DNA from: a virus
Virus record (IMG/VR): IMGVR_UViG_3300037337_000109
Coordinates: 1-37,139 of that record
Reading direction: 5' to 3' (one strand)
DNA: 37,139 nt
In this document: positions 2,914 through 33,813 of the stretch, piece after piece
Position numbering within the stretch: position 1 is the stretch's first letter
Layout of the letters: the number at the start of each line of letters is the position of its first letter
Translations under genes and position numbers: made by a program
Notes under the pieces: model-generated
Told to the model about the DNA's origin: nothing
The model's database searches: none
Seen by the model: only the letters and a program-made list of their open reading frames with translations

Positions 2914-2931
2914 AAAGTCAGCACTGACTCT
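2914..2931. promoter_or_regulatory. Dyad motif copy A
   Basis: AAAGTCA-GCAC-TGACTCT carries the AGTCA-N4-TGACT core of the family repeated through the window. It sits in the short gap between the helicase stop (2935) and the start of the small membrane gene at 2889, 25 bp from that start in the direction of transcription. Confidence 0.75.
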
Positions 2932-2934
2932 GCC

Positions 2935-4656
2935 TTATTTGGAAATGCGAGTCAAGCCCAAGGTCGCGAAATCAAAGTCTGTCACGATGCCTTCTGAGAA
3001 GCCCGGGGTGCCCTGCACGATCGACAGACGCTGCACGAAGTGACCCTTCAGGTGGTTGTTGTGATCGTCTGCCATGTCCACGATCAGCGCGACGTTGGGG
3101 CCTGTCTTCTTTTCGCGCAAGCCCCGGCCGATTCGCTGGCGCGTGGCAACCTCTGCCTTGCCCCCGCCGGCCAGCACGATCATGCCCACGCTAGGTACGT
3201 CCACACCCACGTCGAGAATGGTTGAGCCGATCAGGGCGTCGATCGCACCGGTGCCCAGGGCCTTCAGGGTGCGGGTGCGCTCTGCCTGGTTGTCGTCGCC
3301 GTAGATGAAGGCGGCTCTTGCGCCGGCGCGGGTGAGCATGGTCAGCAAAATTTCGCCGTGGGCCTTGTGCTGCACCAAGATCATCGCGTTCAGGCCATAC
3401 CGCATCGCGCGCAGTACTTCCGCACAGATTGCCCTGTTGCGGTATTCGTTGTTGACGATGCCGTGCTCGTAGGCGGGCTGCCAGGGCGTTGAGCGCGCCA
3501 GGCGCTTGGGCTTGTGCTGCACCGGCATGTTGACGTACTTGAAGTAAGGCCGCGCGAGAATGCCGCGCTCGATCAGCAGCTCTTCACTGATGCGAACCGC
3601 GACCGGGCCGCAGCATGCCAAAAGTCGCATGTTGGCCGCCTCGTCGTCCTTCATGAACGGGGTGGCTGTGAGAGCCATGCGGTAGTGGGCGTTCTTGCAC
3701 GCCGACATGACGATGTAGAAGCTGTCGCCCGAAACTTCGTGCGCCTCTTCGACAATCACCAGCTCGAACTTCGCCAGAATCTCGATCGTTGCCACGCGCA
3801 AGCGCTCGTGACGCTCCACCTTCGCTGTGATCTTGCCTAGCTCCAGCTGTAGGTTGCCGTTTTCGCGGTCGAGCTTGTCGGTCAGCGCCAGCAGCTCGTT
3901 GCCGATCTCAAGGGCCGGGGTCTTTTTCTTCACTAGCACCTTGCGCTCAGCATCAACCTTGCGCGAAATCGCAGCATCCCGACGGTCTTTGAGCGCTTGC
4001 ATCTCGCCCTTGACCGACTTGACCTCAAGCCGCGCGGCAAGCGTCTGCACCATCGCAACCGTGTACTTTGACAAGCGTCGACCCTCGCTGCCGTCTTCCC
4101 GGGTGTAGGCAATGCCCCACTCGCCGTCGCCCAGAATCGCGCAGGGCGCGCCGGTCATCTTCTCGACTGCCTCGTGCATCTGGTACATGAGAATGCCGCG
4201 CGTGGTCAGAAAGAGGGCAGGGCGACCGATACGCTTCATCGCCATGCGAGCCAGGCGGGACTTGCCCCCACCGGTCGCTACTTGCACCGTGATGTTCTTG
4301 TGCCGCACCAGGGTCTCGACCGCCGCGGGCTGGTAGTCATACCGCTCAGAGAAGCCAAAGTCGTCCACCACCGGGTTGGGCTCACCCAAGGGCTCTGGCG
4401 CGGGCTTGCCCACCACCTGCACCTGGTGGCCCATCTTCTTCAGCCCCTGGGTCACCAGTCGCACAAAACCCGTGGGGAACGTGCCCTTGTCGTAAGAGAA
4501 AAACGAGCTGTTGCCGTCCCAGCCCCCGCTCTTGAACGCCGTCATGTGCTCAGACCCATCGACCTTGTACGACAAGAGCCGGTGAATCTCGTTGCGCGCC
4601 TCGTTCGGGGCGTTGAGCACTTTGGCGGTGACTGCGTTGAAAGCGATCGAGATCAT
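2935..4656 (-). CDS. UvsW-like SF2 DNA helicase
   Basis: This 573-residue protein is an ATP-driven DNA helicase/translocase of superfamily 2, close in layout to phage T4 UvsW, which remodels branched DNA and R-loops. A WDG-containing N-terminal module (about residues 35-85) resembles the UvsW DNA-binding wing. The Q-motif-like YQP is at 108-110 and Walker A, ATGGGKS, at 127-133. A charged probable coiled coil (about 215-290) is inserted before motif II, which reads EEAH (303-306) instead of DEAH. Motif III, TATPF, is at 330-334 and motif VI, QRIGRGLR, at 507-514. It is the first gene of the leftward operon, reading out of a divergent control region that carries a dyad motif. A role in phage DNA replication, recombination or repair is likely. 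Family assignment is firm; the exact substrate is not known. Confidence 0.9.
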   Translation of the reverse strand: MISIAFNAVTAKVLNAPNEARNEIHRLLSYKVDGSEHMTAFKSGGWDGNSSFFSYDKGTFPTGFVRLVTQGLKKMGHQVQVVGKPAPEPLGEPNPVVDDFGFSERYDYQPAAVETLVRHKNITVQVATGGGKSRLARMAMKRIGRPALFLTTRGILMYQMHEAVEKMTGAPCAILGDGEWGIAYTREDGSEGRRLSKYTVAMVQTLAARLEVKSVKGEMQALKDRRDAAISRKVDAERKVLVKKKTPALEIGNELLALTDKLDRENGNLQLELGKITAKVERHERLRVATIEILAKFELVIVEEAHEVSGDSFYIVMSACKNAHYRMALTATPFMKDDEAANMRLLACCGPVAVRISEELLIERGILARPYFKYVNMPVQHKPKRLARSTPWQPAYEHGIVNNEYRNRAICAEVLRAMRYGLNAMILVQHKAHGEILLTMLTRAGARAAFIYGDDNQAERTRTLKALGTGAIDALIGSTILDVGVDVPSVGMIVLAGGGKAEVATRQRIGRGLREKKTGPNVALIVDMADDHNNHLKGHFVQRLSIVQGTPGFSEGIVTDFDFATLGLTRISK

Positions 4657-4744
4657 GTGTTGCTTGCCAAAAGTGAAGATTGCTTATACAGTCAGGACTG
4701 ACTTACGTGTGCTTATAGATACCTCTCAATTATAGAGAATCAGC
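4657..4744. promoter_or_regulatory. Divergent control region with dyad copy B
   Basis: This 88-bp gap separates the helicase (leftward) from the ParB operon (rightward). It holds ACAGTCA-GGAC-TGACTTA at 4688-4705. A rightward TTGCCA (4664-4669) and TATACA (4685-4690) are 15 bp apart, with the dyad at the expected transcription start. On the minus strand a TATAAG box abuts the dyad and would lead into the helicase. Two TGCTTATA octamers (4681-4688 and 4710-4717) flank it. One DNA-bound regulator here could control both early operons. The promoter boxes are weak matches. Confidence 0.6.
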
Positions 4745-5410
4745 TTGACAAAACAAATCGACATTCAACACCTGGCGCCAGCCCGCCTGATGCCCAACCC
4801 GTGGAACTCCAACCGAGTTGGTCCCGAGATGGAAGAGCGTCTTCGCGCCAGCATCGCTGAGTTCGGGCTTTACAAGCCGATCGTGGTGCGCGAGCTGATT
4901 GGAGACACCTTTGAGATTCTGGGTGGCGAGCACCGCTGGCGCGTCGCCTGCGACATGGGCCTGCAGACAGTGCCGGTTGTCAGCGTGGGCGTTATCACCG
5001 ACAAGAAGGCGAAATTGCTGGGTCTGGCCGACAACGGCCAATATGGCGAAGACGACAGCCTGATGCTGGCTGCGATTCTGCGCGACATTGGCCAAGAGGA
5101 TGTCTCGACCTACCTGCCCTACACCGACGAAGACATGGCCGGCATGTTTGCAGCCGCCGACGTTGACTTGGACTCCCTGGGCTTTGACGACGAAGAAATG
5201 AATGCTGGCACGCCAATGGCAGACAGTGTGCGCCCCGGCGTCACTCACGAGCTGATGCGCTTCAAGGTTCCGATCGAAGACCGTGAGCGTGTTCAAAAGC
5301 TGATCGAGAAAGTCATCGCCGACAACGGCCTGAAGGCCGAGACCGACTCAATGGTTGCCGCCGGCATGGCCCTGGTGGTGATCGCCAACGCCGCGAGAGA
5401 GTCGCTGTGA
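4745..5410 (+). CDS. ParB-like N-terminal domain protein 1
   Basis: This 221-residue protein has a ParB/sulfiredoxin-type fold in its N-terminal half. The signature GGEHRWR at residues 60-66 follows a PNPWN segment near 18-22, typical of phage ParB-like proteins. This fold can bind or cleave DNA and, in some members, hydrolyse nucleotides. The C-terminal 120 residues are acidic and helical, with no motif I can name. The start is a TTG at 4745; I accept it because the conserved PNPWN segment lies close behind it and AGAGAA is upstream. The next in-frame ATG would truncate the domain. It opens the rightward operon and its stop overlaps the next start. With the ABC ATPase and GNAT downstream, a part in DNA modification is more likely than plasmid-style partition: no ParA is seen. 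Confidence 0.8.
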   Translation: MTKQIDIQHLAPARLMPNPWNSNRVGPEMEERLRASIAEFGLYKPIVVRELIGDTFEILGGEHRWRVACDMGLQTVPVVSVGVITDKKAKLLGLADNGQYGEDDSLMLAAILRDIGQEDVSTYLPYTDEDMAGMFAAADVDLDSLGFDDEEMNAGTPMADSVRPGVTHELMRFKVPIEDRERVQKLIEKVIADNGLKAETDSMVAAGMALVVIANAARESL

Positions 5411-5493
5411 CGCCTTACCACCGCGTAATTCCGATTCGGGTCGAGCAGGGCGACCTTGAAGAGATCGAAGAAAACGCCGCGGTGACCGCGTGA
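5407..5493 (+). CDS. Candidate 28-residue coupling peptide
   Basis: A GTG at 5407 overlaps the parB stop as GTGA. The 28-codon frame ends at 5493 in another GTGA overlap with the next gene. It fills the gap exactly and would keep ribosomes moving through the operon. The peptide is acidic in its second half and matches nothing I know. It may be a real small protein or only a coupling reading frame. Confidence 0.4.
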   Translation: MTPYHRVIPIRVEQGDLEEIEENAAVTA

Positions 5494-5690
5494 GCACCGC
5501 GTCGGCATTGATCGCAGTTGTACGCGACCACATGGGCCGCAAGTCCACCTGGACCTTTAGCCGACCTGTTGGCTACTCAGACGTGGTTGTTATTGATAGC
5601 GTTTGCAAGTTGGTCACCAAGTCGATCAAAAAGTACACCAATCACCCACCCAGCGTAATTCTGGTGGCAATTAACGGAGGCAAATCATGA
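5490..5690 (+). CDS. Unknown small protein of ParB-ABC operon
   Basis: I do not recognise this 66-residue protein. It starts with GTG in a GTGA overlap with the 28-codon frame before it and ends in an ATGA overlap with the next gene. It looks alpha/beta, with a hydrophobic strand near residues 30-36 and another near 55-61, and is mildly basic. The tight packing on both sides is the main evidence that it is real. Confidence 0.5.
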   Translation: MSTASALIAVVRDHMGRKSTWTFSRPVGYSDVVVIDSVCKLVTKSIKKYTNHPPSVILVAINGGKS

Positions 5691-5917
5691 GCCTGACACA
5701 AGCAACCCCACAAACGCCTGAAGAGCAAGCCGAGGTCGACTACGGCGACCACGTCATCTGGCGCCTAGTCAATTCGACCATCACCAGCTTCGGCTCTAAC
5801 GAAGATGGCGAGATTTTTCTCTCCACAGTCAAAGACGGCGTGAACTGCGCCTTCGTGATTGGAAAAGACGAGCACGGCGACTTGGCGATCTTTGAGATTG
5901 AGAAGGAATCAAAGTGA
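5687..5917 (+). CDS. Unknown small acidic protein
   Basis: I do not recognise this 76-residue protein. The ATG at 5687 has a strong GGAGG ribosome site and overlaps the previous stop (ATGA). The protein is acidic and appears largely beta-stranded from residue 20, with several Gly-Glu/Asp turns. Its end overlaps the GTG of the second ParB gene. A small acidic protein between two ParB-like DNA proteins could be an adaptor or an inhibitor of DNA binding; this is a guess from position. Confidence 0.6.
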   Translation: MSLTQATPQTPEEQAEVDYGDHVIWRLVNSTITSFGSNEDGEIFLSTVKDGVNCAFVIGKDEHGDLAIFEIEKESK

Positions 5918-6558
5918 GCGACAAAAAACTGAAAACCGAAACTTGGCCACTTGCCAACATCACACCCTATGAGCTGAACGTCAAGAAGCACGACAAGGAA
6001 CAAGTTGCGCGCATTGCCGCTTCGATTTTGAAGAGCGGTTTTGACCAGCCAATCGTGGTAGACAAGAACGGCGTGATTATCAAGGGTCACGGTCGTCGCC
6101 TGGCACTCATTGAACTGGGTCGCACCGAAGCGCCGGTGATTATTCGTGATGATTTGAGTGCGGCGCAAGTTCGCGCCGCACGTCTGGCAGATAACCGTGT
6201 CGCCATTGGCGACATCGACACGGAAATGCTCAAAGTTGAGCTGGAAGACCTTGATTTCGATCTTCTGGAAGGTATTTTTGACGAAAAAGAACTCAATTTC
6301 ATAGTTGCCGACCTGGGTGACATGAATTCTGACTCTTTCGTCACCGACATGAACGCCGTTATCGCTGATCAAAAGACTGACATGACCGAGCGCGTGGCTA
6401 TTGCTGAAGGTGCCCGGGTGCCGCTGGCCAAAGCATTTGGCTTCAAAGACATCGCTGCGCGCGACCAGATTCACATCACCAAACTCATGGGCAAGGCGGA
6501 AAACGTCACTGGCTTGACTGGCGAAGAAGCCCTCACTACCTACATCGCCGCACTATGA
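5914..6558 (+). CDS. ParB-like N-terminal domain protein 2
   Basis: This 214-residue protein carries a second ParB-like domain. A GHGRR signature lies near residues 58-62, and LADNR near residue 90 is typical of phage and methylase-linked ParB-like proteins. It is not a close copy of the first ParB-like gene, which has GGEHRWR, so the two probably have different tasks. The C-terminal half is acidic. The start is GTG at 5914 with AAGGA upstream, overlapping the previous stop, and its end overlaps the ABC ATPase start by 4 bp. That direct coupling to the ATPase suggests a shared complex. Members of this fold may be nucleases or DNA-recognition subunits; I cannot tell which here. Confidence 0.8.
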   Translation: MSDKKLKTETWPLANITPYELNVKKHDKEQVARIAASILKSGFDQPIVVDKNGVIIKGHGRRLALIELGRTEAPVIIRDDLSAAQVRAARLADNRVAIGDIDTEMLKVELEDLDFDLLEGIFDEKELNFIVADLGDMNSDSFVTDMNAVIADQKTDMTERVAIAEGARVPLAKAFGFKDIAARDQIHITKLMGKAENVTGLTGEEALTTYIAAL

Positions 6559-7265: not shown

Positions 7266-7266
7266 A

Positions 7267-7614
7267 ATGAAAAAATCAACCATCGCGCGCGTTTGCCACG
7301 AAGTCAACCGCGCGTACTGCCAAGCCCTTGGCGATATGAGCCAGCCCTCTTGGGAAGACGCACCTCAATGGCAGCGCGACTCCGCAATGCTGGGCGTCAC
7401 ACTGCACAGCGAAAACGATGTTGGGCCGCAGGCCAGTCACGAAAGCTGGATGGCGCAAAAAGTCGCCGAGGGCTGGGTGTATGGCGAGGTCAAGAACCCC
7501 GACCTCAAAGAGCACCCGTGCATGGTGCCGTTCTCTGAACTGCCCGCGTCGCAACAAGCGAAAGACTTCATCTTTCGGGCCGTTGTTCATGCGCTGAGCG
7601 AGAAGACCGAATGA
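7267..7614 (+). CDS. RyR-domain protein
   Basis: This 115-residue protein is almost entirely one RyR (ryanodine receptor repeat) domain. The conserved opening HEVNRAYC is at residues 11-18, followed by GD, a W-x-DAP-type stretch near 29-33, SHESW near 57-61, GWVYG near 69-73, a K-x-HPC stretch near 81-85 and a Leu-Pro/Gln stretch near 91-95. In animals this domain is part of calcium-release channels; phage and bacterial single-domain versions are widespread but poorly understood. It begins one base after the ABC ATPase ends and overlaps the next gene. The surrounding cassette suggests a ligand-binding or sensor role in phage-host conflict; that is inference. Confidence 0.85.
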   Translation: MKKSTIARVCHEVNRAYCQALGDMSQPSWEDAPQWQRDSAMLGVTLHSENDVGPQASHESWMAQKVAEGWVYGEVKNPDLKEHPCMVPFSELPASQQAKDFIFRAVVHALSEKTE

Positions 7615-8146: not shown

Positions 8147-9102
8147 GTGCCGCGCGCCACGAGCTGTGGACCCCCACGGTGGTCGAGCGCCGGGCTCGAC
8201 CACCCGCCGGCGTGAGTCTGAGCTTGCTCAAGCACATCTACGTCGAGTTTGGCACCAAGGCCGACTGGGACGCGCTCAGCATGCTGCACTACAAGGGCCA
8301 CACGTTGGCCGCCGGGAGTCGCTACGTGCGCTGCATGCTGGCCGAGCCGGGGTGCTTGCCCACGCTGATTGGAATCATGGTGTTTGCCTGCCCGCGGCCC
8401 CTGGACGGCGGGCGCAACGACGTGTTCCCCAAACTCAGGCCGAACGCAAATGGGCGCGACAACCGCATGATCAACCAGGCGAGGTTGAGATGGATCAACA
8501 GCAACATGACGTGGAACAACCGCACCGTGCTGGACACCATGTACCGCTCGGCCGGCATCGCCTACCGGTTCAAGAACCTGGCATACCGCCTCTACTGCGC
8601 CAAATACAAGCTGCGCTTTGTCGAGTCGCGCAGCTCGATGGGTCGCTTCAACCCATTCTCCATCAAGACCGGGATGGACTTCACCAAACCCCGACCCGCC
8701 GCGGCCTTATCAGACGGGCTGAAGTTCTTCGCTGGCCACTTTACAAGCTCTCCGCACGACAGCGTGGCCATTATGGAAGAGCTAGTGGCATTGCCACCTG
8801 GTGAGCGCGCACACATGGAACGCAAGCTGCGCGAGTTCTACTACAAGTGGTCCAGTGTGGAAAAGTCGGGCGACAAGCGCGACCTGGGCATGACCCGGGT
8901 GAACGAGCTGCCGATCGACTATGTTCTGAAGCAAGTCATGCAGCTGGTGTTTTCCGCCACTGTCTACTGGATTTGGAAAGTCGTCGACGAGCCGGCCACA
9001 CTTGGCACATCGCTACCGCTGAGCGCCTTTGACGACCAAGCGCCCCTAGCGCCGCTTGCGCACGATTGGACGGGCTGGACGCCCGCTCGGGTGCCCGCAT
9101 GA
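8143..9102 (+). CDS. Mom-like GNAT acyltransferase, predicted DNA modification
   Basis: This 319-residue protein shows a GNAT-type core resembling phage Mu Mom, which modifies adenine in phage DNA to block restriction. Visible landmarks are HY at 49-50 in a Mom-like context, a hydrophobic strand LIGIMVFACP (75-84), and an R-x-x-G-x-A acyl-CoA-loop pattern RSAGIA at 135-140. A Ser/Arg-rich motif ending in GRFNPF follows at 161-172. The C-terminal 140 residues are an added, mostly helical region. The start overlaps the thioredoxin stop (ATGA). The ABC ATPase, two ParB-like proteins and this GNAT together form the ABC-ParB-GNAT association seen in other phages. The fold is likely; the modified base and acyl donor are unknown, and Mom catalytic residues cannot be confirmed by eye. 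Confidence 0.65.
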   Translation: MSAARHELWTPTVVERRARPPAGVSLSLLKHIYVEFGTKADWDALSMLHYKGHTLAAGSRYVRCMLAEPGCLPTLIGIMVFACPRPLDGGRNDVFPKLRPNANGRDNRMINQARLRWINSNMTWNNRTVLDTMYRSAGIAYRFKNLAYRLYCAKYKLRFVESRSSMGRFNPFSIKTGMDFTKPRPAAALSDGLKFFAGHFTSSPHDSVAIMEELVALPPGERAHMERKLREFYYKWSSVEKSGDKRDLGMTRVNELPIDYVLKQVMQLVFSATVYWIWKVVDEPATLGTSLPLSAFDDQAPLAPLAHDWTGWTPARVPA

Positions 9103-9515
9103 AGGGTGTGACCGCGTACCAGCTTGAAATTCTGGTGCTTGTGAACCAGGGCGGGCCGGACGGTGCGCTGGACCTTGACCAAATGCTCACGCGACTGAGC
9201 TGGGCGCCGACAAAGGAAAGCGCACAGTTTCCTGTGCGGGCGTTGGTCAAAAAGGGCCTGCTGAAGAAAAGCGAAGAGCTGCTGTTTCGTCGCGGCCGGC
9301 GCCGGGCCAGCTACAGCTTGACCCCCGAGGGCCTGCAGCTACTGGACCCAAGACTCACACCCCTGACGACAAAGACGACTTCGCCGCCTATACCCGGTCT
9401 TCCCGAGCCGGAGCTTGATGTAGCCCTTTCCTCAGAAGTCACTGATGAGCCTCTTTTTCTAGAAGACTCAGACCTTGAGTGGGGCGTTTTTGACGAGCCG
9501 GAGCTTTCCGTTTGA
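9099..9515 (+). CDS. Winged-helix DNA-binding protein
   Basis: This 138-residue protein has an N-terminal winged helix (about residues 4-82). Helix-rich YQLEILVLV opens it, the recognition area is around 35-50, and a basic wing with RRGRRR lies near residues 64-71. Y.LTPEG, typical of MarR/PadR-like proteins, closes the fold. The C-terminal 55 residues are acidic and Pro-rich, probably disordered. The frame extends upstream to 9066, but the ATG at 9099 overlaps the GNAT stop (ATGA) and begins just before the domain. It is the last gene of the cassette and the only clear sequence-specific DNA-binding regulator in the window. That makes it a candidate for recognising the dyad motif family; this is inference. 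Confidence 0.75.
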   Translation: MKGVTAYQLEILVLVNQGGPDGALDLDQMLTRLSWAPTKESAQFPVRALVKKGLLKKSEELLFRRGRRRASYSLTPEGLQLLDPRLTPLTTKTTSPPIPGLPEPELDVALSSEVTDEPLFLEDSDLEWGVFDEPELSV

Positions 9516-9830
9516 GGCATTTTTCTCGTTCCGGGGCTGGTTTTGGCAAGATTTCATAATTTCACGTAAGTCATTGATTTATAAGAAAATTTTAGGGTGT
9601 TAGCGATTTGGGGGTCTTCCCTATATATAGAACTTCAAAAAGAAGAAGAAGAATACAAATACAGATGGGGGACGACACGATCGCTACCCCGGACCTCACA
9701 TGAAAAATAAGTCAACGCTGAAACACCAACGACGCGATTCGGTTTACAATCTCACCCAGAAGCAGAAGAAATTCTCCTCTCGGGTGAGCCTCGCGCTCAC
9801 CCATTTTTTTTGCCTGAGTGAGAACCCCCA
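9516..9830 (+). promoter_or_regulatory. Gene-poor region before terS
   Basis: No well-supported gene lies in these 315 bp. From left to right it holds a TAAGTCA half-site (9567-9573), an AT-rich stretch with a possible promoter (TTAGCG at 9600-9605, 16 bp, TATATA at 9622-9627), and a purine-rich AAGAAGAAGAAG run near 9640. A second TAAGTCA half-site with a decayed partner (9708-9725) and a strong terminator (9782-9811) follow. A 44-codon frame (9700-9834) overlaps the terS start but lacks a good ribosome site. The transcript between promoter and terminator would be about 170-180 nt. Position just before terS also allows a cos or pac packaging site. Confidence 0.5.
9782..9811 (+). terminator. 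Rho-independent terminator before terS
   Basis: GGGTGAGC (9782-9789) pairs perfectly with GCTCACCC (9795-9802) around CTCGC, followed by A and eight T (9804-9811). This is one of the clearest terminators in the window. It would end read-through from the ParB-ABC-GNAT cassette, or a short transcript begun near 9630, 20 bp before the terS start. Confidence 0.9.
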
Positions 9831-10487
9831 ATGAGCGGCACCACCTCACCAGTCAAAAAGCCCGCCGCGAAGAAGAGCGCCGGGCGCAGCGTCGGCTCAC
9901 GCAGTCTCACCATGACCGAGCGCGCAGAAGCCGCGGCCCTGTGGCGCTCCGGCTCAGTCACCCTAGAAGACCTTGCCAAGAAGTTCAAGAAACGACCCGA
10001 GACTTTCTCCCGGCTCTTCACCCGCATGGGTGTGGAGAAGGGCAGCACGGCGGCCAGCGCGATGCGCAAGGCAGAGCTGGCGATTGCTTCTCGGATCGTA
10101 AACCAGGCAGAGCTCACGTTGGAGCGAATTACCCAGGTGAAGGACTCGCACTTCGCCATGAGTCGTTCGATTGCCCTAATGGCCTTCAAAGACCTTCAGC
10201 AAGCCAAGAGGGCAGAGCTGGACATCGGCAAGCTCAAAGACATCATGGCGGTCTACAAGATGGCCTCTGAGGTGGTGGGCAACTCGCGCAAGGAGCTTTT
10301 TCAGATTCTGGACGTTGAGGGGCACAAGGCCGACTCGCTTCTTGATGACTTGCCCGACCTCACGGTGCGCGAACTGACCCAGGACGAAGTAGAAGGGCTC
10401 AGAAACGCGCCGGAAGATGATCTTGATACCTCGACAGGTGCGGGCATGCTGGACCTCGACGACAGCGATTTTGAGAGCGTCGGGTGA
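9831..10487 (+). CDS. Terminase small subunit
   Basis: This 218-residue protein is the likely DNA-recognition subunit of the packaging motor. A basic N-terminus (residues 9-24) leads into a helix-turn-helix (about 28-67, with LTMTERAEAAALW and TLEDLAKKF). Central helices (about 70-160) suit ring assembly, and an acidic tail follows (170-218). Its position directly before and overlapping the large terminase (GTGA) makes the assignment strong despite low sequence conservation of this family. The ATG at 9831 follows a terminator by 20 bp, so mRNA must start very close by or anti-termination must act. Confidence 0.8.
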   Translation: MSGTTSPVKKPAAKKSAGRSVGSRSLTMTERAEAAALWRSGSVTLEDLAKKFKKRPETFSRLFTRMGVEKGSTAASAMRKAELAIASRIVNQAELTLERITQVKDSHFAMSRSIALMAFKDLQQAKRAELDIGKLKDIMAVYKMASEVVGNSRKELFQILDVEGHKADSLLDDLPDLTVRELTQDEVEGLRNAPEDDLDTSTGAGMLDLDDSDFESVG

Positions 10488-11806: not shown

Positions 11807-11807
11807 C

Positions 11808-11836
11808 TTGCAACTCAGTCAACGCTGACTTACACT
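11808..11836 (+). promoter_or_regulatory. Portal promoter with dyad copy E in the spacer
   Basis: TTGCAA (11808-11813) and TACACT (11831-11836) are 17 bp apart. The dyad TCAGTCA-ACGC-TGACTTA (11815-11832) fills the spacer and overlaps the -10 box. The portal ATG is 20 bp further on, so the 5' leader would be only about a dozen bases. A protein on the dyad would sit exactly where RNA polymerase binds. Confidence 0.65.
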
Positions 11837-11856
11837 CGGCCATTACCTATAAGAAC

Positions 11857-13401: not shown

Positions 13402-13474
13402 ACCCGTCGACCCAAGCAACCGGGTCGGCAAACTTCAACAATCGACCGAGAGACTGGTCATAGGAAAACAAGAG

Positions 13475-14383
13475 ATGTACGGAATTCAACGACTTCTGAA
13501 ATTGCACAAGCTGATGAAACCTGCTGACGACGCCGGCTCTAACACCGGTGGAACCGGTACGGGCTCTGCTGCGCTCGGCGCTGGTGAAGGTGATGGCAAG
13601 GTCGGTGAGGGCGATGCCGGCAAAGTGGGTGGCGAGTCACAACCTCCAGCTAAGACCGAACCCGAAGGCAAGCCCGCAGGCATGTCCGAAGGCGATGCCA
13701 AGCTGCTGAAGGAAGTGATGAAGCTCAAGTCGAAGGTAGCTGACTCTGAGACCGCTTTGAGAGAAGCGCGCGAAAGGCTCAGCAGCTACGACGGGGTGGA
13801 CGCAGCCAAGGCAAAGCAGCTGTTGGAAAAGGAAAAAGACACCGAGCGCCAAGCGGCAGAGTCTCGTGGTGAATACGACCGTCTGGTCAAACAGATGGGT
13901 GAGCGCCACACCGAAGAGATGAAGGTCGCTAACGCAGCGCTTGCAGTCGCCAACGGAAGCACCTCGGTGCTTCAGTTGCAGATTGCCGAGCTGACCGTGG
14001 GCAATGCGTTTGGTGTCTCGCAATTCGTCGCTGGCGACCTGACGCTCACGCCTTCAAAGGCGCGGGTGATCTACGGAAACCACTTCGAGTTCAAAGACGG
14101 CCGTGTCGTGGGTTACGACAAGCCAGTGGGTGCAAGTGAGCGCACCGTTCTGGTGGACAGTACCGGCGAACCTCTGGTGTTTGATGACGCGATGCGCAAG
14201 CTCGTGGACGCAGACCCAGATCGTGATCAGTTGTTGCGAAGCAAGGCCAAGGCCGGCGCTTCCAGCTCGACTGTCGCGAAGGGCAGCGCACGCGCGGTCG
14301 CCGATGCCGACAGGGCAGCACGTTCGAGTATGTCTCCCAGCGAGAAAATCGCAGCAGGGTTGAAACAACTTGTCAAAGTCTGA
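13475..14383 (+). CDS. Scaffold protein, DUF6651-like
   Basis: This 302-residue protein is the probable internal scaffold that guides capsid assembly. A Gly/Ala/Asp-rich flexible N-terminus (about 16-70) is followed by a long charged coiled coil (about 74-175). A small folded segment (about 175-240) and a basic, Ser/Ala-rich C-terminal helix that would touch the capsid protein complete it. It directly precedes the major capsid gene. No serine protease motif is visible here or in the neighbours, and no separate head protease gene is seen, so capsid maturation may occur without proteolysis. The start has AGGA 11 bases upstream. Confidence 0.8.
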   Translation: MYGIQRLLKLHKLMKPADDAGSNTGGTGTGSAALGAGEGDGKVGEGDAGKVGGESQPPAKTEPEGKPAGMSEGDAKLLKEVMKLKSKVADSETALREARERLSSYDGVDAAKAKQLLEKEKDTERQAAESRGEYDRLVKQMGERHTEEMKVANAALAVANGSTSVLQLQIAELTVGNAFGVSQFVAGDLTLTPSKARVIYGNHFEFKDGRVVGYDKPVGASERTVLVDSTGEPLVFDDAMRKLVDADPDRDQLLRSKAKAGASSSTVAKGSARAVADADRAARSSMSPSEKIAAGLKQLVKV

Positions 14384-14420
14384 CAAGGTGCCTAAAATCT
14401 GGTAAGTCAGCACTGACTTG
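14370..14420 (+). promoter_or_regulatory. Major capsid promoter with dyad copy F
   Basis: TTGTCA (14370-14375), a 17-bp spacer and TAAAAT (14393-14398) make a good sigma70 promoter. The dyad TAAGTCA-GCAC-TGACTTG (14403-14420) starts 4 bp after the -10 box, covering the expected transcription start. This is the classic position for repressor block. The promoter lies partly inside the scaffold gene end. Confidence 0.7.
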
Positions 14421-14452
14421 CCTCAGTCAAAAACAAACTCAAGGAGTTCAAT

Positions 14453-15358
14453 ATGCCTTTGCTTCGCGCCGAAGCCGAAAAACTGTCCCAGAACCAAGTC
14501 GTTCAGGGCATCATCGAAGAAATCATCACTGTGAACGAAATGTTCGCGCTGCTGCCTTTCGCTAAAGTGGACGGCAAAGCCTTCCTCTACAAGCGCGAGA
14601 GCACGCTGCCGACCGTGGTTTACCTGGACCCGAGCGAAGACGTGCCCGAAAGTGCCGCGACGTTCGAGGAAGTTGTCACCAAGCTGCGCATCTTGATCGG
14701 TGACGTGGATGTGGACAAGTTCATGGACGAGACCCTTTCCGATACCGAAAGCCAGCTAGGCATTCAGATTGCGCTGAAGGTCAAGGCAATGGCTCGCACC
14801 TACCAAGGTTCCGTGGTCAACGGTAACAACACCATCAACTCGAAAGAATTTGACGGTCTGCGCGCCCTGACCGTTGCCGGTCAGACCACCGCGTCAGCTA
14901 CCAACGGTGGCGCACTGACCCTGACCAAGCTCGACGAGTTGCTGGATGCCGTGCCAAACGGTGCCGACTTCTTGATGATGCGCTCGGGCACCCGTCGCGC
15001 CTACGTTGCTCAGCTGCGTGCAGCTGGCGGCAACACCGGTGCGATGATTCAGCATCCGAACTTTGATGTGCCTGTGCAAGCCCACAACGGCGTGCCCATC
15101 ATCATCAACGACTACCTGCCTGCAAATGAAGTGCAGGGCACCTCTGGCGCTGCGACTTGCTCGGTCTACGCAGTTCGTGCCAACGAACTTGATGGTCTGC
15201 ATGGTCTGTACGGCGGCGACTCTGTCGGTATTCGCGTGGAATCCATTGGCACTGTGCAGAACAAAGATGCAACTCGCACCCGCGTCAAGTGGTACTGCGG
15301 CCTGGCGCTCAAGAGCACCAAGTCTGTGGCCCGTTTGAGCGGCGTAACGAACATCTGA
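14453..15358 (+). CDS. Major capsid protein, HK97 fold
   Basis: This 301-residue protein forms the head shell. It has the length and pattern of HK97-fold capsid proteins that lack a cleaved delta domain: an N-terminal helical arm, an E-loop region rich in Thr/Val/Glu near residues 45-75, a P-domain helix around 85-120, and a C-terminal A-domain ending in a strand-rich segment with LALKSTKSVARLSG. Position after the scaffold and before connector genes supports it. AAGGAG lies 8 bases before the ATG at 14453. The gene has its own promoter and dyad upstream and a strong terminator downstream, as expected for the most abundant virion protein. Confidence 0.9.
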   Translation: MPLLRAEAEKLSQNQVVQGIIEEIITVNEMFALLPFAKVDGKAFLYKRESTLPTVVYLDPSEDVPESAATFEEVVTKLRILIGDVDVDKFMDETLSDTESQLGIQIALKVKAMARTYQGSVVNGNNTINSKEFDGLRALTVAGQTTASATNGGALTLTKLDELLDAVPNGADFLMMRSGTRRAYVAQLRAAGGNTGAMIQHPNFDVPVQAHNGVPIIINDYLPANEVQGTSGAATCSVYAVRANELDGLHGLYGGDSVGIRVESIGTVQNKDATRTRVKWYCGLALKSTKSVARLSGVTNI

Positions 15359-15366
15359 TCTTGACG

Positions 15367-15384
15367 TAAGTCAAAGGTGACTAT
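15367..15384. promoter_or_regulatory. Dyad motif copy G
   Basis: TAAGTCA-AAGG-TGACTAT lies 8 bp after the capsid stop and 2 bp before the terminator hairpin. Unlike the other copies, transcription started here would meet a terminator at once. This may mean that it acts on the terminator or that its promoter role has been lost. Confidence 0.65.
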
Positions 15385-17923: not shown

Positions 17924-17975
17924 TTGCCAAGCCCCTGGTGAACTTCTACAATTGCTAAGTCACCCATGACTTAGC
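17924..17975 (+). promoter_or_regulatory. Tail tube promoter with dyad copy H
   Basis: TTGCCA (17924-17929), 17 bp, and TACAAT (17947-17952) form a good promoter. GCTAAGTCA-CCCA-TGACTTAGC (17954-17975) is a perfect 9-bp inverted repeat that starts 1 bp after the -10 box. Its position matches the capsid promoter closely: the dyad covers the expected transcription start. Confidence 0.75.
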
Positions 17976-18012: not shown

Positions 18013-18864
18013 ATGGCTTCGAGTACGAAGAACGTAAAGCTCGGCGTTTGCCGCGCTTTTTTTGGCGGTGTCGACCTCGGTCTCACTAAGGGCGGAGTAG
18101 AGGTCACGATGACCACCGAGACTTACAAGGTTGAAGTGGACCAGTTCGGCAAGACCCCGATCAAAGAGCAGATTCAGGGTCGCACCGTGATGGCCAAAGT
18201 GCCAATGGCTGAGACCACGCTGCAAAACATGGCGATGCTGACGCCCGGTGCAGCCCTGGTGACCGATGGCGTGCGCGCATTTGCCAGTGTGACCTTCGCC
18301 GCCAACCCAACCGCCACCACCACGGTGACGATCGCTGGTCAGGCATTCACCTTCGCAGTGGGTACGCCAACGACCGTGTTTGCCGTCAAGATCGGCGCAA
18401 CCCTGCAAGAGACCATTGATCGGTTTAACTCTGTGGTGAACCGCAGTCAGCTGGCCAAGGCAACTGGCGGCGTGGTGGCGGTTCAAACTGCCCCGACCGT
18501 GGTGATCATTCGCGCCGTGGAGCCAGGTTCTGCATCCAATGCAGTGACCATCGCAGCCACTCTTGGCGGCACCGCTTCGGGCACAACCCTCATAGGCGGC
18601 ATCGTTGAAACGATGGCCCGTCTGGACGTGTCTACCGGTATCGGTGTGGACTTGCTGGATTTGGCTCAAGAGCTGCGCTTGCACCCTGCGAACAAGCCCG
18701 ACACCGACTTCAGCGAAGACTTCGTGATTCTGCAAGCGGCCACGCCTGGCGCCATGCAGTTCGCCTACAAGCTGGACGCCGAGCGAATCTTCAACGCCGA
18801 CTTCATGGGCTACCCAGACCCCGTCACTGGCAAGTTGTTCGTCATCGGCAACACCGCGATGTAA
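18013..18864 (+). CDS. Major tail tube protein with inserted domain
   Basis: This 283-residue protein forms the tail tube. The opening (residues 1-88) has a lambda/SPP1-like tube pattern: a GVCRAFFGGVDLG start, then KGGVEVTM and a VDQFGKTPI loop. Residues about 90-196 look like an inserted Thr/Val/Ala-rich beta domain with its own Gly-Asn/Thr turns, and the tube fold resumes to the end with an AERIFNADF strand. Such insertions decorate the outside of the tail. AAAGGA lies before the ATG. The gene has its own promoter/dyad and a terminator, as expected for an abundant protein. Confidence 0.85.
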   Translation: MASSTKNVKLGVCRAFFGGVDLGLTKGGVEVTMTTETYKVEVDQFGKTPIKEQIQGRTVMAKVPMAETTLQNMAMLTPGAALVTDGVRAFASVTFAANPTATTTVTIAGQAFTFAVGTPTTVFAVKIGATLQETIDRFNSVVNRSQLAKATGGVVAVQTAPTVVIIRAVEPGSASNAVTIAATLGGTASGTTLIGGIVETMARLDVSTGIGVDLLDLAQELRLHPANKPDTDFSEDFVILQAATPGAMQFAYKLDAERIFNADFMGYPDPVTGKLFVIGNTAM

Positions 18865-22600: not shown

Positions 22601-23385
22601 TGCAGGACTCTAGAGAGGCTTCCAAAAAGCGCACAGAGGCCGACAATGAGCGTCACCGCTCGGCAATGCAGAACATCATCAATGAGCGTGCCGCCAGGGG
22701 TCTAGACCCCGCAGTCGTCACTCAGATGCAAAATGCGCTGGACAGCAGCACCGCTGCGCGTGCCGCCACTGTGACAGACAAGTTTGCGACGCCCATGCAA
22801 AAGATGGCCGAGGAGTGGGAGAACACAACCGCGCAGATGGAGCAAGCGACGGCCAACTGGGGCAACGCCGCGATGCAAACCATGACCGATCTGGTCACCA
22901 CCGGCAAGGCCGACTTCAAGGGCCTGGCGGCCTCGATCATAAAAAACCTCATTCAAATTCAACTTCAAAAAGCGATGGCGGGCGCGGTGAGTGCAGCCAC
23001 GGGCTTTATCAGCACCGCGGCGTCTGCCATGTTCAAGTTCGCTGATGGGGGCGTGATGAACGAGCTGGGCTCGATGCCGCTGAAGAAGTACGCCGCAGGC
23101 GGCGTGGCCAGAAGCCCGCAGCTGGCCATGTTTGGCGAGGGCTCGATGGCTGAAGCCTACGTGCCACTGCCTGACGGTCGCACCATCCCCGTGACCATGA
23201 AGGGTGGCGGTGGGGGTGATGTCGCGATCAACATCGTCGTCAACAACTCGGGTGATCAGAGCAACAGTTCAACCAGCAGCACCGGCAGCCCGGACGAGAT
23301 GTATAAACGCATGAGCGAGAGAATCAAGGGGGTGGTGCGTGAAGAGATGCTCCAGCAACAGCGACCAGGTGGCTCTCTTTACTAA
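19636..23385 (+). CDS. Tape measure protein
   Basis: This 1249-residue protein sets tail length and fills the tube. The N-terminal tape-measure domain (about 90-230) contains the typical alternation of NAPFEVSALADSF, MEELRQQLGE and GTLDAVPAMKR. A hydrophobic segment with Gly-Pro (about 518-550) may insert into membrane during DNA entry. Charged coiled coils run about 555-690 and again about 980-1070. The C-terminal part resembles lambda gpH, with a GKADFKGLAASIIKNL segment (about 1095) and FADGGVMNE followed by AYVPLPDGRTIPV near the end. Length predicts a tail of roughly 180 nm if 0.15 nm per residue holds. The ribosome site is weak. Confidence 0.95.
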   Translation: MSLANGGTILVALDLDDRGYRINTINAGRLMQGLRQDINQAAGSLQRMERHTDSLGRRFRDLVLTMGSLRFIAMDLNDIFLRLPMAILKTSGELERLQTLMTGLSKETTRVKREMDGLNDFNFVVGMTKNAPFEVSALADSFVKLKTAGIDPTNGSLLALVDSIARFGGTGESLKRATIAIQQMAGKGVISMEELRQQLGEHVPNAMKAMATGMGMSMAQLAVVVSSGTLDAVPAMKRMLAVMAVDNDAAAADMMKTWVGLLARMKTEGQLAAKFIAESGMASASKQAVRDITTALGSTEARAFFKEFGAGMGDIILAASAFAKVLVSWGEEIVLVGKAFLAYKVVTSFILPAMVGLNATRIRGIALIQTEVVASRAAAIGTSRQAVELAAVNRRMLAERLSAHTAELNSNRAKNAIILAEHTALAARMAATRGGIPMPGVAGFVPRPVVAGQMRAMATESASLTRQQRLLAVEIGRTQLAMQAQAAAATAAAAALARLTNASIATRIATVATNAAVAAGNALYALIGGPVGIALIALGSLAYAYYYLAGAADRAAEAERRRARAEIEGATQKGDPKKAEKALRDATKELDRLEKEKARIARLPTNRAAFGTSKEEKDKMEGDIAAAKDRIFKAEKEINGHAINIARDLEIEKQNILKTALGRRAQTIRDAGNIETAELNQRRDRELGLLINDKGPAVEKKRQEISDKYRDMGAENFKANRIKMAKMYEDEARDLEQSVLMARSGTAAQKEAQLRAVAELRTISQQIMNEMGNFGSAMPTFKLPKVKPEGGDANSKKDSPIQRLIEDLDEKKVRLLADIDSINGLKGPVDKASGVLSEMMKRWENGDFDVFGTGDNKGKVTRPDRSVAVAVAQAAADNVNLDVLLKNRTKAANDASEIADYILAKRDDLAEAAAILLNPLAISSKGNMERLDDAVMAANIDKVRAYAERMKITVDEAAKLIRSPSLVVDSANMIRTLEEETKSMNDALVQDSREASKKRTEADNERHRSAMQNIINERAARGLDPAVVTQMQNALDSSTAARAATVTDKFATPMQKMAEEWENTTAQMEQATANWGNAAMQTMTDLVTTGKADFKGLAASIIKNLIQIQLQKAMAGAVSAATGFISTAASAMFKFADGGVMNELGSMPLKKYAAGGVARSPQLAMFGEGSMAEAYVPLPDGRTIPVTMKGGGGGDVAINIVVNNSGDQSNSSTSSTGSPDEMYKRMSERIKGVVREEMLQQQRPGGSLY

Positions 23386-23407
23386 TAAGTCACCGTTGAC
23401 TTATACT
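23379..23407 (+). promoter_or_regulatory. Tail-tip promoter with dyad copy I
   Basis: TAAGTCA-CCGT-TGACTTA (23386-23403) is a perfect 7-bp dyad right after the tape measure stop. TATACT (23402-23407) overlaps its right arm. A weak TTACTA (23379-23384) is 17 bp upstream of that box. The arrangement is the same as at the portal and fibre genes. The gpM-like gene starts 24 bp downstream. Confidence 0.6.
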
Positions 23408-23431
23408 GAGCCCCCCGCACATTGAGCCCCT

Positions 23432-23812
23432 ATGTCAAAACCGATATTCAAATGGTTTCCTGATGCCAGTCACCAAAAGTCAACAGAGCCCAGGGTTATG
23501 TCGGCAAAGTTTGGTGACGGCTATGAGCAGCGGTCTTCGATCGGTCTAAACCCAATTCTTCCGACTTGGTCTTTAACATTTACCGGACTCAGAAAAGAAA
23601 TCGACCCCATTGATGTCTTTCTCGAAGCGCGAGGCGGGGCCGAGTCATTTCAGTGGAAAACTCCAGACGAAGAAGGGGGCCTGTACGTGTGCAGAAAGTG
23701 GACTAAAAAACGCGAGCACGGCTCTAAGGTGACGCTTCAGTGCGAGCTTGAGAAGGTGTCGGAGCCGGGTTACGAACCCGAAGAAGAAAACTACCCTGCG
23801 GTGTCAACATGA
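23432..23812 (+). CDS. Minor tail protein, lambda gpM-like
   Basis: This 126-residue protein matches the Phage_min_tail (gpM) pattern: an opening KPIFKWFPD, then KFGDGYEQR near residues 27-35, SLTFTGL near 47-53, and FQWKTP near 73-78. It belongs to the distal tail tip complex, next to the tape measure end. It begins a run of overlapping tail-tip genes (M, L, K, I, J order, as in lambda) and its stop overlaps the next gene by 4 bp. Confidence 0.9.
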   Translation: MSKPIFKWFPDASHQKSTEPRVMSAKFGDGYEQRSSIGLNPILPTWSLTFTGLRKEIDPIDVFLEARGGAESFQWKTPDEEGGLYVCRKWTKKREHGSKVTLQCELEKVSEPGYEPEEENYPAVST

Positions 23813-26329: not shown

Positions 26330-26335
26330 CATGAC

Positions 26336-30871: not shown

Positions 30872-31452
30872 ATTCAAATTACATTTCATATGATGTCAAC
30901 ACGGGCGAAATTCTCTCAAAAGGATACTCTCAGCTGTCTTTGCTTAATTTGCGCCCAGACGTAATTATCCTGGGGGGTGAGGGGGTGGACATCATGGGGT
31001 TTCGCGTTGAAAACGGCGCGCTTGTGGTGATGCCGCCTCGCCCCTCTCAACATCACGCTTTTAACTACGTCGTCAAACAGTGGGAAGACCCGCGCACGCT
31101 TGCTGATCACAAGAGCGTCAAGAACAGCGCCATCAACTCGGCCCGCCTGCAAGCCAACCAGGGCTCGTTCACCTACGAGGGCAAGCAGATCGCCACCGAC
31201 CCGCTGAGCCGGGGCGACATCGATGGCGCGCACGGGGACTGGCTGATCGGCAACGTACCAGCCGATTGGCCCGGTGGGTGGAAGACGATGGACAACACCT
31301 ACGTGGCAATCCCCGACCAGACGACTTGGTTCTTGTTCTACAAGGCCATGACCGCGCAGGGCACGGCCAACTTCATTCACGCACAAGCCCTCAAGGCGCA
31401 GCTTGATGCGGCCACGACCCCAGAAGAGGTCGAAGCGGTCCCGTCATGGTAG
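30868..31452 (+). CDS. Tail-fibre-associated protein, DUF4376-like
   Basis: This 194-residue protein has a short N-terminal part (1-70) and a C-terminal DUF4376-type domain (about 75-192). Its landmarks are INSARLQANQGSF, DPLSRGDIDGA, W..MDNTYVAIPD and AMTAQGTANFIHAQ. Members lie next to tail tip and fibre genes in many phages and are thought to be fibre-associated or chaperone-like. It overlaps the gpJ-like gene by ATGA, so it is made with it. The start of the gene is AT-richer and continues the composition of the gpJ tip; composition returns to normal after about 30960. Confidence 0.85.
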   Translation: MNSNYISYDVNTGEILSKGYSQLSLLNLRPDVIILGGEGVDIMGFRVENGALVVMPPRPSQHHAFNYVVKQWEDPRTLADHKSVKNSAINSARLQANQGSFTYEGKQIATDPLSRGDIDGAHGDWLIGNVPADWPGGWKTMDNTYVAIPDQTTWFLFYKAMTAQGTANFIHAQALKAQLDAATTPEEVEAVPSW

Positions 31453-31456
31453 CCGC

Positions 31457-31485
31457 TTGAAGATAAGTCAGTGCTAACATACACT
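31457..31485 (+). promoter_or_regulatory. Fibre promoter with dyad copy J
   Basis: TTGAAG (31457-31462) and TACACT (31480-31485) are 17 bp apart. The variant dyad TAAGTCA-GTGC-TAACATA (31464-31481) fills the spacer exactly as at the portal promoter. The ATG of the coiled-coil fibre lies 18 bp after the -10 box, with AAGGA in between. Confidence 0.6.
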
Positions 31486-31503
31486 TAGCCAAAAGGAACT
31501 GAA

Positions 31504-33768
31504 ATGGCATGGTATAAATCTGGAAGCGTCGCACTCACAAACGGGTCGCGCAACGTGGTCGGCACCTCGACGAACTTTGTGCGCTTTGCTGAAGTCGGCG
31601 AGGCGATACTTCTCCCCGATGGTCAGGTCTACGAAATCGACCAGATTTCGTCTGCCACAGAACTGCGCCTGGCCCGCCCCTACGCCGGCCCAACCCTCTC
31701 TGACGCGACTTACTCGGTCGCACCCACGCAGGGGTATGTTCGAGAATTGGCATACAAGGCAGCGAACCTCATTGACCAGTACGGCGTGGTCAATGAGACC
31801 ACCGCCACCACGCTGACTGAGCTGACCAACACCCGCGATATTCTGGCCAACGCCTACGGGTCATTGGAGAATATGCAAACCGCGATCGACCAGGCAACAG
31901 GTGAAATTGAAACCGCCCGGGTCACGTCCCTTGGCGATGTTGATGCAGCCCGCACCACATCGCTGGCGCAGGTAGACACAGCGCGTCTTGGTTCACTGGC
32001 TGACGTTGAAGGCGCGCGCACCACATCGCTGACCAATGTGGAGACGGTCCGCACCGGCGCCCTTGATAACGTGGAAGCTGCACGCGCAAGTTCGCTTGCC
32101 GCGCAGTCGCTGGCAAGGGCGACTTCGCTTGCCGATGTCGAGGCTGCTCGTCTCGCCTCGCTTGCAGAGCAGGGGCTCAGTCGCGTCACGTCTCTTGCCA
32201 ACGTAGAGATGGCCCGCTTGAGCTCACTGTCTGATGTGGAGCAACTGCGCACCACCTCGCTGACTGACGTGTCGGCCCTGCGTCTGACCTCACTGACCGA
32301 TGTTGAGGCGAAGCGAGTGTCGTCTGTGGCATCTGTCGAGACAAAACACCAGGCGTCTTTGACATCGGTTGAGCTGGCACGAGTCACATCGGTCGATTCG
32401 GTTGAGGCGACCCGAAACTCCGTTCTTGCCTCGGTTTATGAGGCTGAAAATGCCGCCGTCGTGCATGTCGAGCAGGTGCAGGCAACTGCCACCGCAGACG
32501 TTGACGCCCACTCGGCAACCGCCCACACATCGCTCGAAGTGACACGCATGGCCGCCAACGCGACCATCGAGGTAACGCGGGTTGATGCCAACGCTTCTGT
32601 CGAAACAAAGCGGGTGAGCTCGATTGCCTCCGTCGAAGAAAAGCGTCTTTCCTCTGTGACCGACGTGACCGACACCCGGGTGAGCGCACTCAGCGCCATC
32701 GACATCGAGCTGAACAGGGTGGGTGCGCTTTCACTGTTGGCGCAGGGTAGTGCCTCAGCTGCCGCCAGCACCGCGCTGCATGTCGACAACGTGGCCATTC
32801 TGGTGGACGCATCGCGCGACGCCGCGACAGCCAGCGCCGCCGCAGCTCTAACATCTGCCGACAATTCCAGCGTCAGCGCCGCGCAGTCTGCGCTCAGCTC
32901 GACCGAGGCGACACAGCAGGCGACCGCATCAGATGTCTCGCGCGCCGAGAGTCTGCGACTGCACGACCTGACGCTCGGCTACCAACAGGCAGCGCAAGAC
33001 GCAACGGTCAACGCGATTGCAGTGGCAGAAGACCGCGCCGCGGCGGACGTCAGCGCCACAGCAGCTGCAGCCAGCGAAGCATCGGTCGAGACGAATCGAA
33101 TCGCCAGTGCAGCCAGTGAGCTGAATGCCGCCAACAGCGAATCAGCAGCCGCTGCCAGTCAGGTCGCAGCCGCTGCCAGTCAGGTCGCATCCGCTCTGAG
33201 CGAGACAAACGCCCGGTCAAGTGAACTTGCCAGCGCCGCCAGTGAGACTGTGGTGCTCGCCAAGACGGCGATTGTGCTCACCCAGAGCGAGCAGACGCGC
33301 CTGAACGCAGAGGGGGCGGTTCGAGATGCCGCGTCAACTGCTGCCGATCGCGCGGCCTCTGCCGCCTCTACCGCATCGGCTGCCGCGAGCGAAGACCTGG
33401 CGCGTCGCTGGGCCACGCAAGAGGTCACACCAGTAACGACGGACGCCCAGGGCAACCAGCTGTATTCGGCACGCTACTGGGCCAATTTGGCCGCCACCGC
33501 CGTCAGCGGCTCCATGTCGTACATGGGTGTTTGGGATGCGTCCACGGGGGCCTTGCCGAACGGCTTCGCAACTGGCCAGTTCTACAAGGTCGGCACCACC
33601 GGCGTGATCGACGGTGTGACCTACACCCAGCTGGATATGGTGATCTTCAACGGCTCGACTTGGGACCACATCGACAACACCGAAGACTTCACACAGGTTC
33701 AGACCCAGCTTGACGACATGACCAGGGAGCTTCGCGTGATCAAGGCACTGGCGATTCTTGGTCTGTGA
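31504..33768 (+). CDS. Long tail fibre with hendecad coiled coil
   Basis: This 754-residue protein is a side tail fibre or shaft. Residues 1-95 form a beta-rich attachment domain (WYKSGSVALTNGSRNV, then LPDGQVYEIDQI) common at the N-terminus of phage fibres. Residues 138-401 are 24 consecutive 11-residue repeats with the consensus (A)R.(T)SL.DVE(A), predicted to form a long right-handed coiled coil. Residues about 410-640 are Ala/Ser-rich and helical, like lambda Stf. The last 100 residues (from WATQEVTPV) form a compact C-terminal domain with YWANLAA and YMGVWDASTG. The receptor-binding part is presumably the separate downstream proteins. AAGGA precedes the ATG. Confidence 0.85.
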   Translation: MAWYKSGSVALTNGSRNVVGTSTNFVRFAEVGEAILLPDGQVYEIDQISSATELRLARPYAGPTLSDATYSVAPTQGYVRELAYKAANLIDQYGVVNETTATTLTELTNTRDILANAYGSLENMQTAIDQATGEIETARVTSLGDVDAARTTSLAQVDTARLGSLADVEGARTTSLTNVETVRTGALDNVEAARASSLAAQSLARATSLADVEAARLASLAEQGLSRVTSLANVEMARLSSLSDVEQLRTTSLTDVSALRLTSLTDVEAKRVSSVASVETKHQASLTSVELARVTSVDSVEATRNSVLASVYEAENAAVVHVEQVQATATADVDAHSATAHTSLEVTRMAANATIEVTRVDANASVETKRVSSIASVEEKRLSSVTDVTDTRVSALSAIDIELNRVGALSLLAQGSASAAASTALHVDNVAILVDASRDAATASAAAALTSADNSSVSAAQSALSSTEATQQATASDVSRAESLRLHDLTLGYQQAAQDATVNAIAVAEDRAAADVSATAAAASEASVETNRIASAASELNAANSESAAAASQVAAAASQVASALSETNARSSELASAASETVVLAKTAIVLTQSEQTRLNAEGAVRDAASTAADRAASAASTASAAASEDLARRWATQEVTPVTTDAQGNQLYSARYWANLAATAVSGSMSYMGVWDASTGALPNGFATGQFYKVGTTGVIDGVTYTQLDMVIFNGSTWDHIDNTEDFTQVQTQLDDMTRELRVIKALAILGL
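31915..32706 (+). repeat. Twenty-four 33-bp repeats coding hendecads
   Basis: An unbroken run of 24 units of 33 bp encodes 11 residues each, with hydrophobic residues at conserved places (Leu/Val at positions 6 and 9) and Arg at position 2 in most. No insertion or deletion breaks the period. Units 1-15 are the most regular; 16-20 are diverged; 21-24 return to consensus. Confidence 0.92.
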
Positions 33769-33770
33769 AG

Positions 33771-33813
33771 TCAGTCAGCAATGACTTGACACAAGACGCA
33801 AGCTCGGTACAAT
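33771..33813 (+). promoter_or_regulatory. Promoter with dyad copy K
   Basis: TCAGTCA-GCAA-TGACTTG (33771-33788) begins 3 bp after the fibre stop. Its right arm runs into TTGACA (33786-33791), a consensus -35, with TACAAT (33808-33813) 16 bp away. Here the dyad overlaps the -35 instead of the -10 or start. The next gene has GGAGG at 33827-33831. Confidence 0.75.

Follow-up and report, generated by a model that had tools for sequence, protein, structure and literature searches.

A dispersed 14-bp dyad in SSU5-like phage-plasmids is a candidate promoter-overlapping operator for a phage-encoded 434/P22-type XRE repressor

Repressors of the 434/P22 type act at a few operators in two control regions, and the operator of 434 is 14 bp in size. 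Other described systems disperse many sites over the genome. The C1 repressor of P1, a phage carried as a plasmid prophage, represses lytic genes and has 22 dispersed operators, each 17 bp long and asymmetric (PMC8546580). The stoperators of mycobacteriophage L5 and of Bxb1 are also numerous in each genome, and from one relative to the next their motif changes in step with the repressor. They are asymmetric, point along the direction of transcription and for the most part lie away from promoters (PMC6550527). The present study analyzes a dyad, AGTCA-N4-TGACT, that is repeated in a virus fragment of 37,139 bases (the whole stretch analysed, here called the window) and in its relatives. The reading we favor, with a probability of roughly 0.8 and on the strength of sequence comparison, is that this dyad is a 14-bp, dispersed, promoter-overlapping operator of a phage-encoded 434/P22-type XRE repressor that silences the phage in its plasmid state.

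Like the operators of P1 C1, the dyads are many and spread across early and late regions, the 37-kb window having 8 and one complete relative as many as 34, and P1 is the closest working analogue of the dispersed set. The dyad is nevertheless symmetric and spans 14 bp, with a 434-type XRE protein as its proposed binder, and because the P1 site is asymmetric and 17 bp long we do not file the set as a member of the P1 system. With L5 and Bxb1 it shares the large number of sites per genome and a motif and repressor that appear to change together, but it differs from L5 stoperators in that the core is a perfect dyad and 76% of 154 sites lie at predicted promoters, compared with 28% of controls. 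A first-pass annotation of the window had remarked that the sites were not the same as those stoperators, and this is borne out by symmetric dyads that mostly overlap promoters by prediction; since most sites overlap promoter-like sequences, they are better named operators than stoperators. To the 434 and P22 C2 repressors and Cro the system is similar in the same predicted helix-turn-helix fold and in having near-consensus sites by a divergent repressor gene, and as in 434 there are two 5-bp half-sites in a 14-bp operator; by its predicted model the protein belongs to the known broad XRE/434 fold class. One difference is dozens of operators over about 100 kb as opposed to a few at two control regions; a possible second concerns the S24 self-cleavage (protease) domain of lambda and 434 CI, to which Pfam gave no match in the five XRE proteins scanned. 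The proposed repressor is also homologous to CYRAN_45 of Cyrano (pLF82) and like it lies beside CobT, CobS and DnaE genes, but the half-site in the Cyrano clade is RGTAA-type, unlike the AGTCA dyads of the window. The passages of PMC9928086 consulted contain no description of Cyrano operators, and no earlier report of operators in SSU5-like phage-plasmids was found in the open-licence literature.

Eight exact cores occur in the window (at 2916, 4690, 11817, 14405, 15369, 17958, 23388 and 33773; Table 1), where about 0.05 would be expected by chance from word frequencies, and the reversed control pattern has 0 copies. All eight lie in intergenic gaps, the distance from dyad to start codon is 23–59 bp, and the spacer is constant at 4 nt. 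When up to two mismatches were allowed there were 27 matches, versus 13.1 ± 3.8 in shuffles, so the signal in the window sits in the exact and near-exact copies. The same eight cores had been listed in the first-pass annotation, by the first base of an 18-bp site, which lies 2 bp ahead of the core, and its placing of all of them between genes was also correct. Its longer consensus, TAAGTCA-N4-TGACTTA, needs trimming, because all 14 arm bases are found only at 17956 and 23386 and it is the 10-base core AGTCA/TGACT that is common. Similarly, a distance of 11 bp between half-sites is right for 7-bp arms, but from centre to centre the 5-bp half-sites are separated by 9 bp. At 31464 and 9708 there are indeed a variant and a decayed copy, respectively, each with two mismatches in one half, but orthologous copies of neither were recovered in the homology check of relatives.

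Table 1. Dyads and candidate promoters in the window
Feature	Sequence	Position	Strand	Remarks
Putative operator dyad	AAAGTCA-GCAC-TGACTCT	2914..2931		Exact core; gap after helicase gene, upstream of minus-strand gene 2889-2689
Candidate sigma70 promoter	TTGCCA-N17-TACAGT	4664..4692	+	Consensus scan only; -10 overlaps dyad 4688..4705
Putative operator dyad	ACAGTCA-GGAC-TGACTTA	4688..4705		Exact core; gap between the divergently transcribed helicase (minus) and parB-like (plus) genes; conserved in G002/L010
Decayed dyad	TAAGTCA-ACGC-TGAAACA	9708..9725		Weak, two mismatches in one half; upstream of terS-like gene 9831-10487
Putative operator dyad	TCAGTCA-ACGC-TGACTTA	11815..11832		Exact core; between terL and portal genes
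Candidate promoter	TTGTCA-N17-TAAAAT	14370..14398	+	Consensus scan only; transcription start would fall under dyad 14403..14420
Putative operator dyad	TAAGTCA-GCAC-TGACTTG	14403..14420		Exact core, conserved in relatives; upstream of major capsid gene 14453-15358
Putative operator dyad	TAAGTCA-AAGG-TGACTAT	15367..15384		Exact core, conserved in relatives; after major capsid gene
Candidate promoter	TTGCCA-N17-TACAAT	17924..17952	+	Consensus scan only; directly upstream of dyad 17956..17973
Putative operator dyad	TAAGTCA-CCCA-TGACTTA	17956..17973		Exact core; upstream of gene 18013-18864
Candidate promoter	TTTACT-N18-TATACT	23378..23407	+	Consensus scan only; spacer contains dyad 23386..23403
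Putative operator dyad	TAAGTCA-CCGT-TGACTTA	23386..23403		Exact core; after tape-measure gene, before tail gene 23432-23812
Variant dyad	TAAGTCA-GTGC-TAACATA	31464..31481		Two mismatches in one half; upstream of fibre-like gene 31504-33768
Putative operator dyad	TCAGTCA-GCAA-TGACTTG	33771..33788		Exact core; upstream of gene with likely ATG at 33839
Candidate promoter	TTGACA-N16-TACAAT	33786..33813	+	11/12 consensus matches; -35 begins inside dyad 33771..33788
Possible asymmetric site	AGTAA-ACAA-TGACT (core 34152)	34150..34167		One mismatch to AGTCA; overlaps start codon 34160; may be chance

The window terminase has about 57–69% identity to those of SSU5, Pseudomonas phage nickie, Rhizobium phages, Acinetobacter 110-kb plasmids and a Cupriavidus metallidurans plasmid, which places the window, as a phage fragment, in the SSU5-like phage-plasmid superfamily; a near-identity search with the window among phage records gave no match. 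Inverted repeats in the relatives were searched de novo, without the motif as input, and AGTCA-N4-TGACT was the top repeat in G020 (34 copies), G002 (27), G015 (26), G013 (19), G011 and G001 (14 each) and the Cupriavidus plasmid (12). Other relatives kept this 14-bp frame but had a different half-site, namely AGTAA in pABTJ2 and G006, AGTAA/AGTGA in G004, mixed AGTAA/AGTCA in G003, AATCA/AGTCA in G017 and RGTAA in the clade of SSU5, Cyrano and pJN2-26. The relaxed form AGTMA-N4-TKACT occurred 6–40 times per dyad-bearing genome outside the SSU5 clade, versus 0–1 for the reversed control, and had 0 copies in phage nickie. In pABTJ2, with 14% of the genome noncoding, all 13 of 13 dyads lay fully outside annotated genes (p 1e-11), as did 18 of 23 in the Cupriavidus plasmid, which is 11% noncoding (p 1e-13). 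Dyads were also kept at orthologous gaps, as an example the terL/portal dyad in about 29 relatives at 66–80% DNA identity, with a spacer that varies in sequence. Enrichment in gaps and conservation in related phages had both been named beforehand as checks, and both were found; with up to 34 exact copies per complete relative and the overlap with sigma70-like promoters described below, they support the genome-wide operator regulon that the first-pass annotation had proposed. A second dyad considered in three genomes, TCAGT-N4-ACTGA, was rejected because most of its copies are the same site in an overlapping frame. Separately, AAACAA-N1-TTGTTT forms a second dispersed dyad with 9–11 copies per genome in SSU5 (L090/L091), Cyrano (L232-L234) and pJN2-26 (L235-L237).

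Sigma70 promoters were scored around 154 dyads, as consensus matches and not mapped starts and with neighbouring genomes that are not independent samples, and the median best score was 11.5 at dyads versus 6.8 in dyad-free gaps. Because the dyad itself resembles promoter parts, two controls were used, a dyad implanted in gaps and real dyads with shuffled flanks. Scores of at least 9 were reached at 76% of the dyads, compared with 28% of implanted-dyad gaps and 41% with shuffled flanks, and scores of at least 13 at 35%, compared with 2% and 5%. The -10 elements fall into three position classes: immediately before the dyad, against its right end, or some 35 bases from its left end. Depending on the class, the start, the spacer or the -35 would lie under the dyad, and the five candidate promoters of the window (Table 1) fit these classes. 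On these predictions the dyad is best explained as a DNA operator. A dimer of the XRE helix-turn-helix protein would bind both AGTCA half-sites and, lying over the -35, the spacer or the -10 and start of many separate promoters, would block RNA polymerase; early and late gene clusters would be shut down one by one in the plasmid (lysogenic) state, and loss of the repressor would release the silenced clusters together. The sites, their conservation and enrichment outside genes, the promoter overlap, the sites upstream of the XRE gene, and the co-occurrence and co-variation described below support this reading at the level of sequence, and from them we infer binding and dimerisation of the XRE protein, repression rather than activation, and a role in lysogeny.

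An alternative explanation could be that the same XRE protein activates at many of these promoters, as a late-gene activator or as a dual regulator like lambda CI at PRM. In one of the three peaks, with the -10 at offset +35, the dyad is indeed centred at about -40 relative to the expected start, which is the class II activator position, but many promoters in that peak carry near-perfect TTGACA -35 elements, so no activator would be needed, and in the other two peaks the dyad falls within the spacer or on the start, so that a protein bound there should obstruct RNA polymerase. Activation is unlikely. We consider it less likely still that the sites are stoperator-like roadblocks that halt RNA polymerase during elongation within operons, as those of mycobacteriophage L5 do; many of the dyads do separate genes that belong to one long run of a single orientation, but stoperators differ from a core that is symmetric and without orientation and that overlaps promoter-like sequence at about 76% of sites. 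Hardly credible is an RNA hairpin in gene leaders, with a stem of 5–7 bp and a loop of 4 nt, for processing or translational control. A tetraloop hairpin would be compatible with the constant 4-nt spacer and with a location 23–59 bp ahead of start codons, but at many sites the -10 is at or downstream of the dyad, which would therefore not be transcribed there. Moreover, arm position 4 varies independently between the two halves of the dyad with no compensation, an AGTAA half being paired with an AGTCA half at 19 of 23 sites in G003, 15 of 22 in G008, 11 of 24 in G006 and 11 of 26 in the Cupriavidus plasmid. AGTAA with TGACT leaves an A-G mismatch in the stem, uncompensated at many sites in these genomes and in G010, and such half-sites argue against a hairpin; independent half-sites would fit a protein dimer on DNA. 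Mixed A/C half-sites, as in the possible site at 34150..34167 of the window, are common in relatives. Within G003 (L163-L168), the 19 of 23 mixed sites exceed the expectation for an even mix, and in tandem contexts the A half is upstream in 12 of 14, a pattern not seen in other genomes.

As binder of the putative operator we propose a 434/P22-type XRE protein, on comparative grounds, with its gene outside the window. Two kinds of protein encoded in the window itself could be considered instead, a ParB-like global regulator, by comparison with KorB and the dispersed ParB-family operators of plasmid RK2, or the product of 9099–9515, a small putative winged-helix protein with a weak PadR-like match that the first-pass annotation had suggested for binding assays. 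Both are conserved beside the terminase genes across the superfamily. However, phage nickie, with 0 dyads, has the 9099–9515 protein and both of the ParB-like proteins of the window, so that presence of the genes does not follow presence of operators; either as binder is very improbable, the 9099–9515 product is a poor candidate, and the XRE/434-type repressor fits much better.

The XRE gene was found in nearly all dyad-rich near-complete genomes (Cupriavidus, pABTJ2, G002, G003, G006, G008-G011, G013-G015, G017 and G020-G022), with a homologue also in G001 (E 4e-22) and weak similarity in G004 (E 2e-6), and it was not detected in nickie, which is also without dyads. Two genomes do not fit simple co-occurrence. 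SSU5 (L090/L091) keeps relaxed RGTMA-N4-TKACY sites (11 versus 2 for the control) while no XRE gene was detected in the 100 kb searched, which is all of the genome but its last 3.3 kb, and a guess would be that SSU5 has lost its repressor; G016 has the gene and no excess of the AGTMA-type dyad. In pABTJ2, Cyrano and pJN2-26 the XRE gene is transcribed away from the replication operon of CobT, CobS and DnaE, in a divergent arrangement. Over 30 XRE loci, the 300 bp upstream contained 26 sites that depart from the consensus at no more than one base, some 7 times the background of the locality and compared with 3 for the control pattern, and at 12 of the 30 there was no near-consensus site within that distance. 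The XRE proteins as a whole differ too much for one alignment to serve in scanning, so subgroups were used, and these scans added contigs such as L197, L198, L212 and L214, in which AGTCA-N4-TGACT was again the top or near-top dyad, a partly independent line because these searches began from the protein rather than the motif. Two of the five XRE proteins scanned matched Pfam HTH_3, a Cro/C1-type helix-turn-helix domain, above cut-off, and the predicted model of this domain matches 434 Cro (2cro; TMt 0.80, 1.7 Å over 63 residues) as well as the 434 repressor bound to operator (2or1) and P22 C2. The C-terminal part of the five proteins had no Pfam match, S24 included, and weak Stl-like structural matches. 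According to PMC9928086, CYRAN_45, the XRE homologue of Cyrano in E. coli LF82, is annotated as a putative repressor, its expression in an overnight culture of the LF82 lysogen is 10-fold above background, and genotoxic stress induces Cyrano. This expression fits a lysogeny repressor, and it bears on the protein, not on the operators.

In a profile alignment to the 434 repressor, XRE residue 55 (G015 numbering), in the recognition helix, stands opposite a residue which we take to be numbered Gln33 in 434; in the 434 half-site, Gln33 makes its contact with base pair 4. Among full genomes, and excluding loci fetched with a pattern containing this Met, C was in the majority at position 4 of the half-site in 12 of 14 genomes with Met55, the exceptions being G008 and G016, and in 0 of 6 with Leu or Phe55 (Fisher p 7e-4, which is optimistic because the genomes are related). 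Within a sister pair, C made up 27% at position 4 in G006 (Leu) and 48% in G008 (Met). On the tree the residue-55 label needs four changes, at least two of them forced by well-supported branches, and the label showed no significant clustering either way. The link between Met55 and C was noticed after viewing the data and so is offered as a hypothesis and not as a pre-planned test.

With slightly more confidence than doubt, we extend this to decentralised immunity across the superfamily, in which one small 434-type repressor would act at 10 to 40 promoter-overlapping operators per 100-kb genome, and base 4 and residue 55 would drift together and set immunity groups, in Acinetobacter, Klebsiella, Escherichia, Cupriavidus, Rhizobium and uncultured hosts. 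The dyad and a matching repressor recur across a large phage-plasmid family, including members in hospital bacteria, and phage-plasmids carry antibiotic resistance genes, as stated in the abstract of PMC9600943. If the operator reading is true, the dyads of each genome would give its regulon directly, the recognition helix would predict which phage-plasmids exclude one another, SSU5, with sites and no detectable repressor gene, would be a natural test of immunity loss, and the family would offer a densely sampled example of joint change in a repressor and its dozens of sites.

Several minor features were seen alongside. G013 has a second XRE homologue (L116:17402-17815, G013:57402-57815) near a TrfA-like replication gene, and the Cupriavidus plasmid encodes a protein annotated as RNA chaperone Hfq (L088:46940-47326), with similar stretches in G002, G013 and G015. 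In the window, the unusually long gap before the terS-like gene contains a further half-site-like stretch at 9567-9583 (TAAGTCA-TTGA-TTTAT), and a 14-pair stem at 2633-2666 with T-rich tails on both sides is possibly a bidirectional terminator between genes 2272-2607 and 2689-2889.
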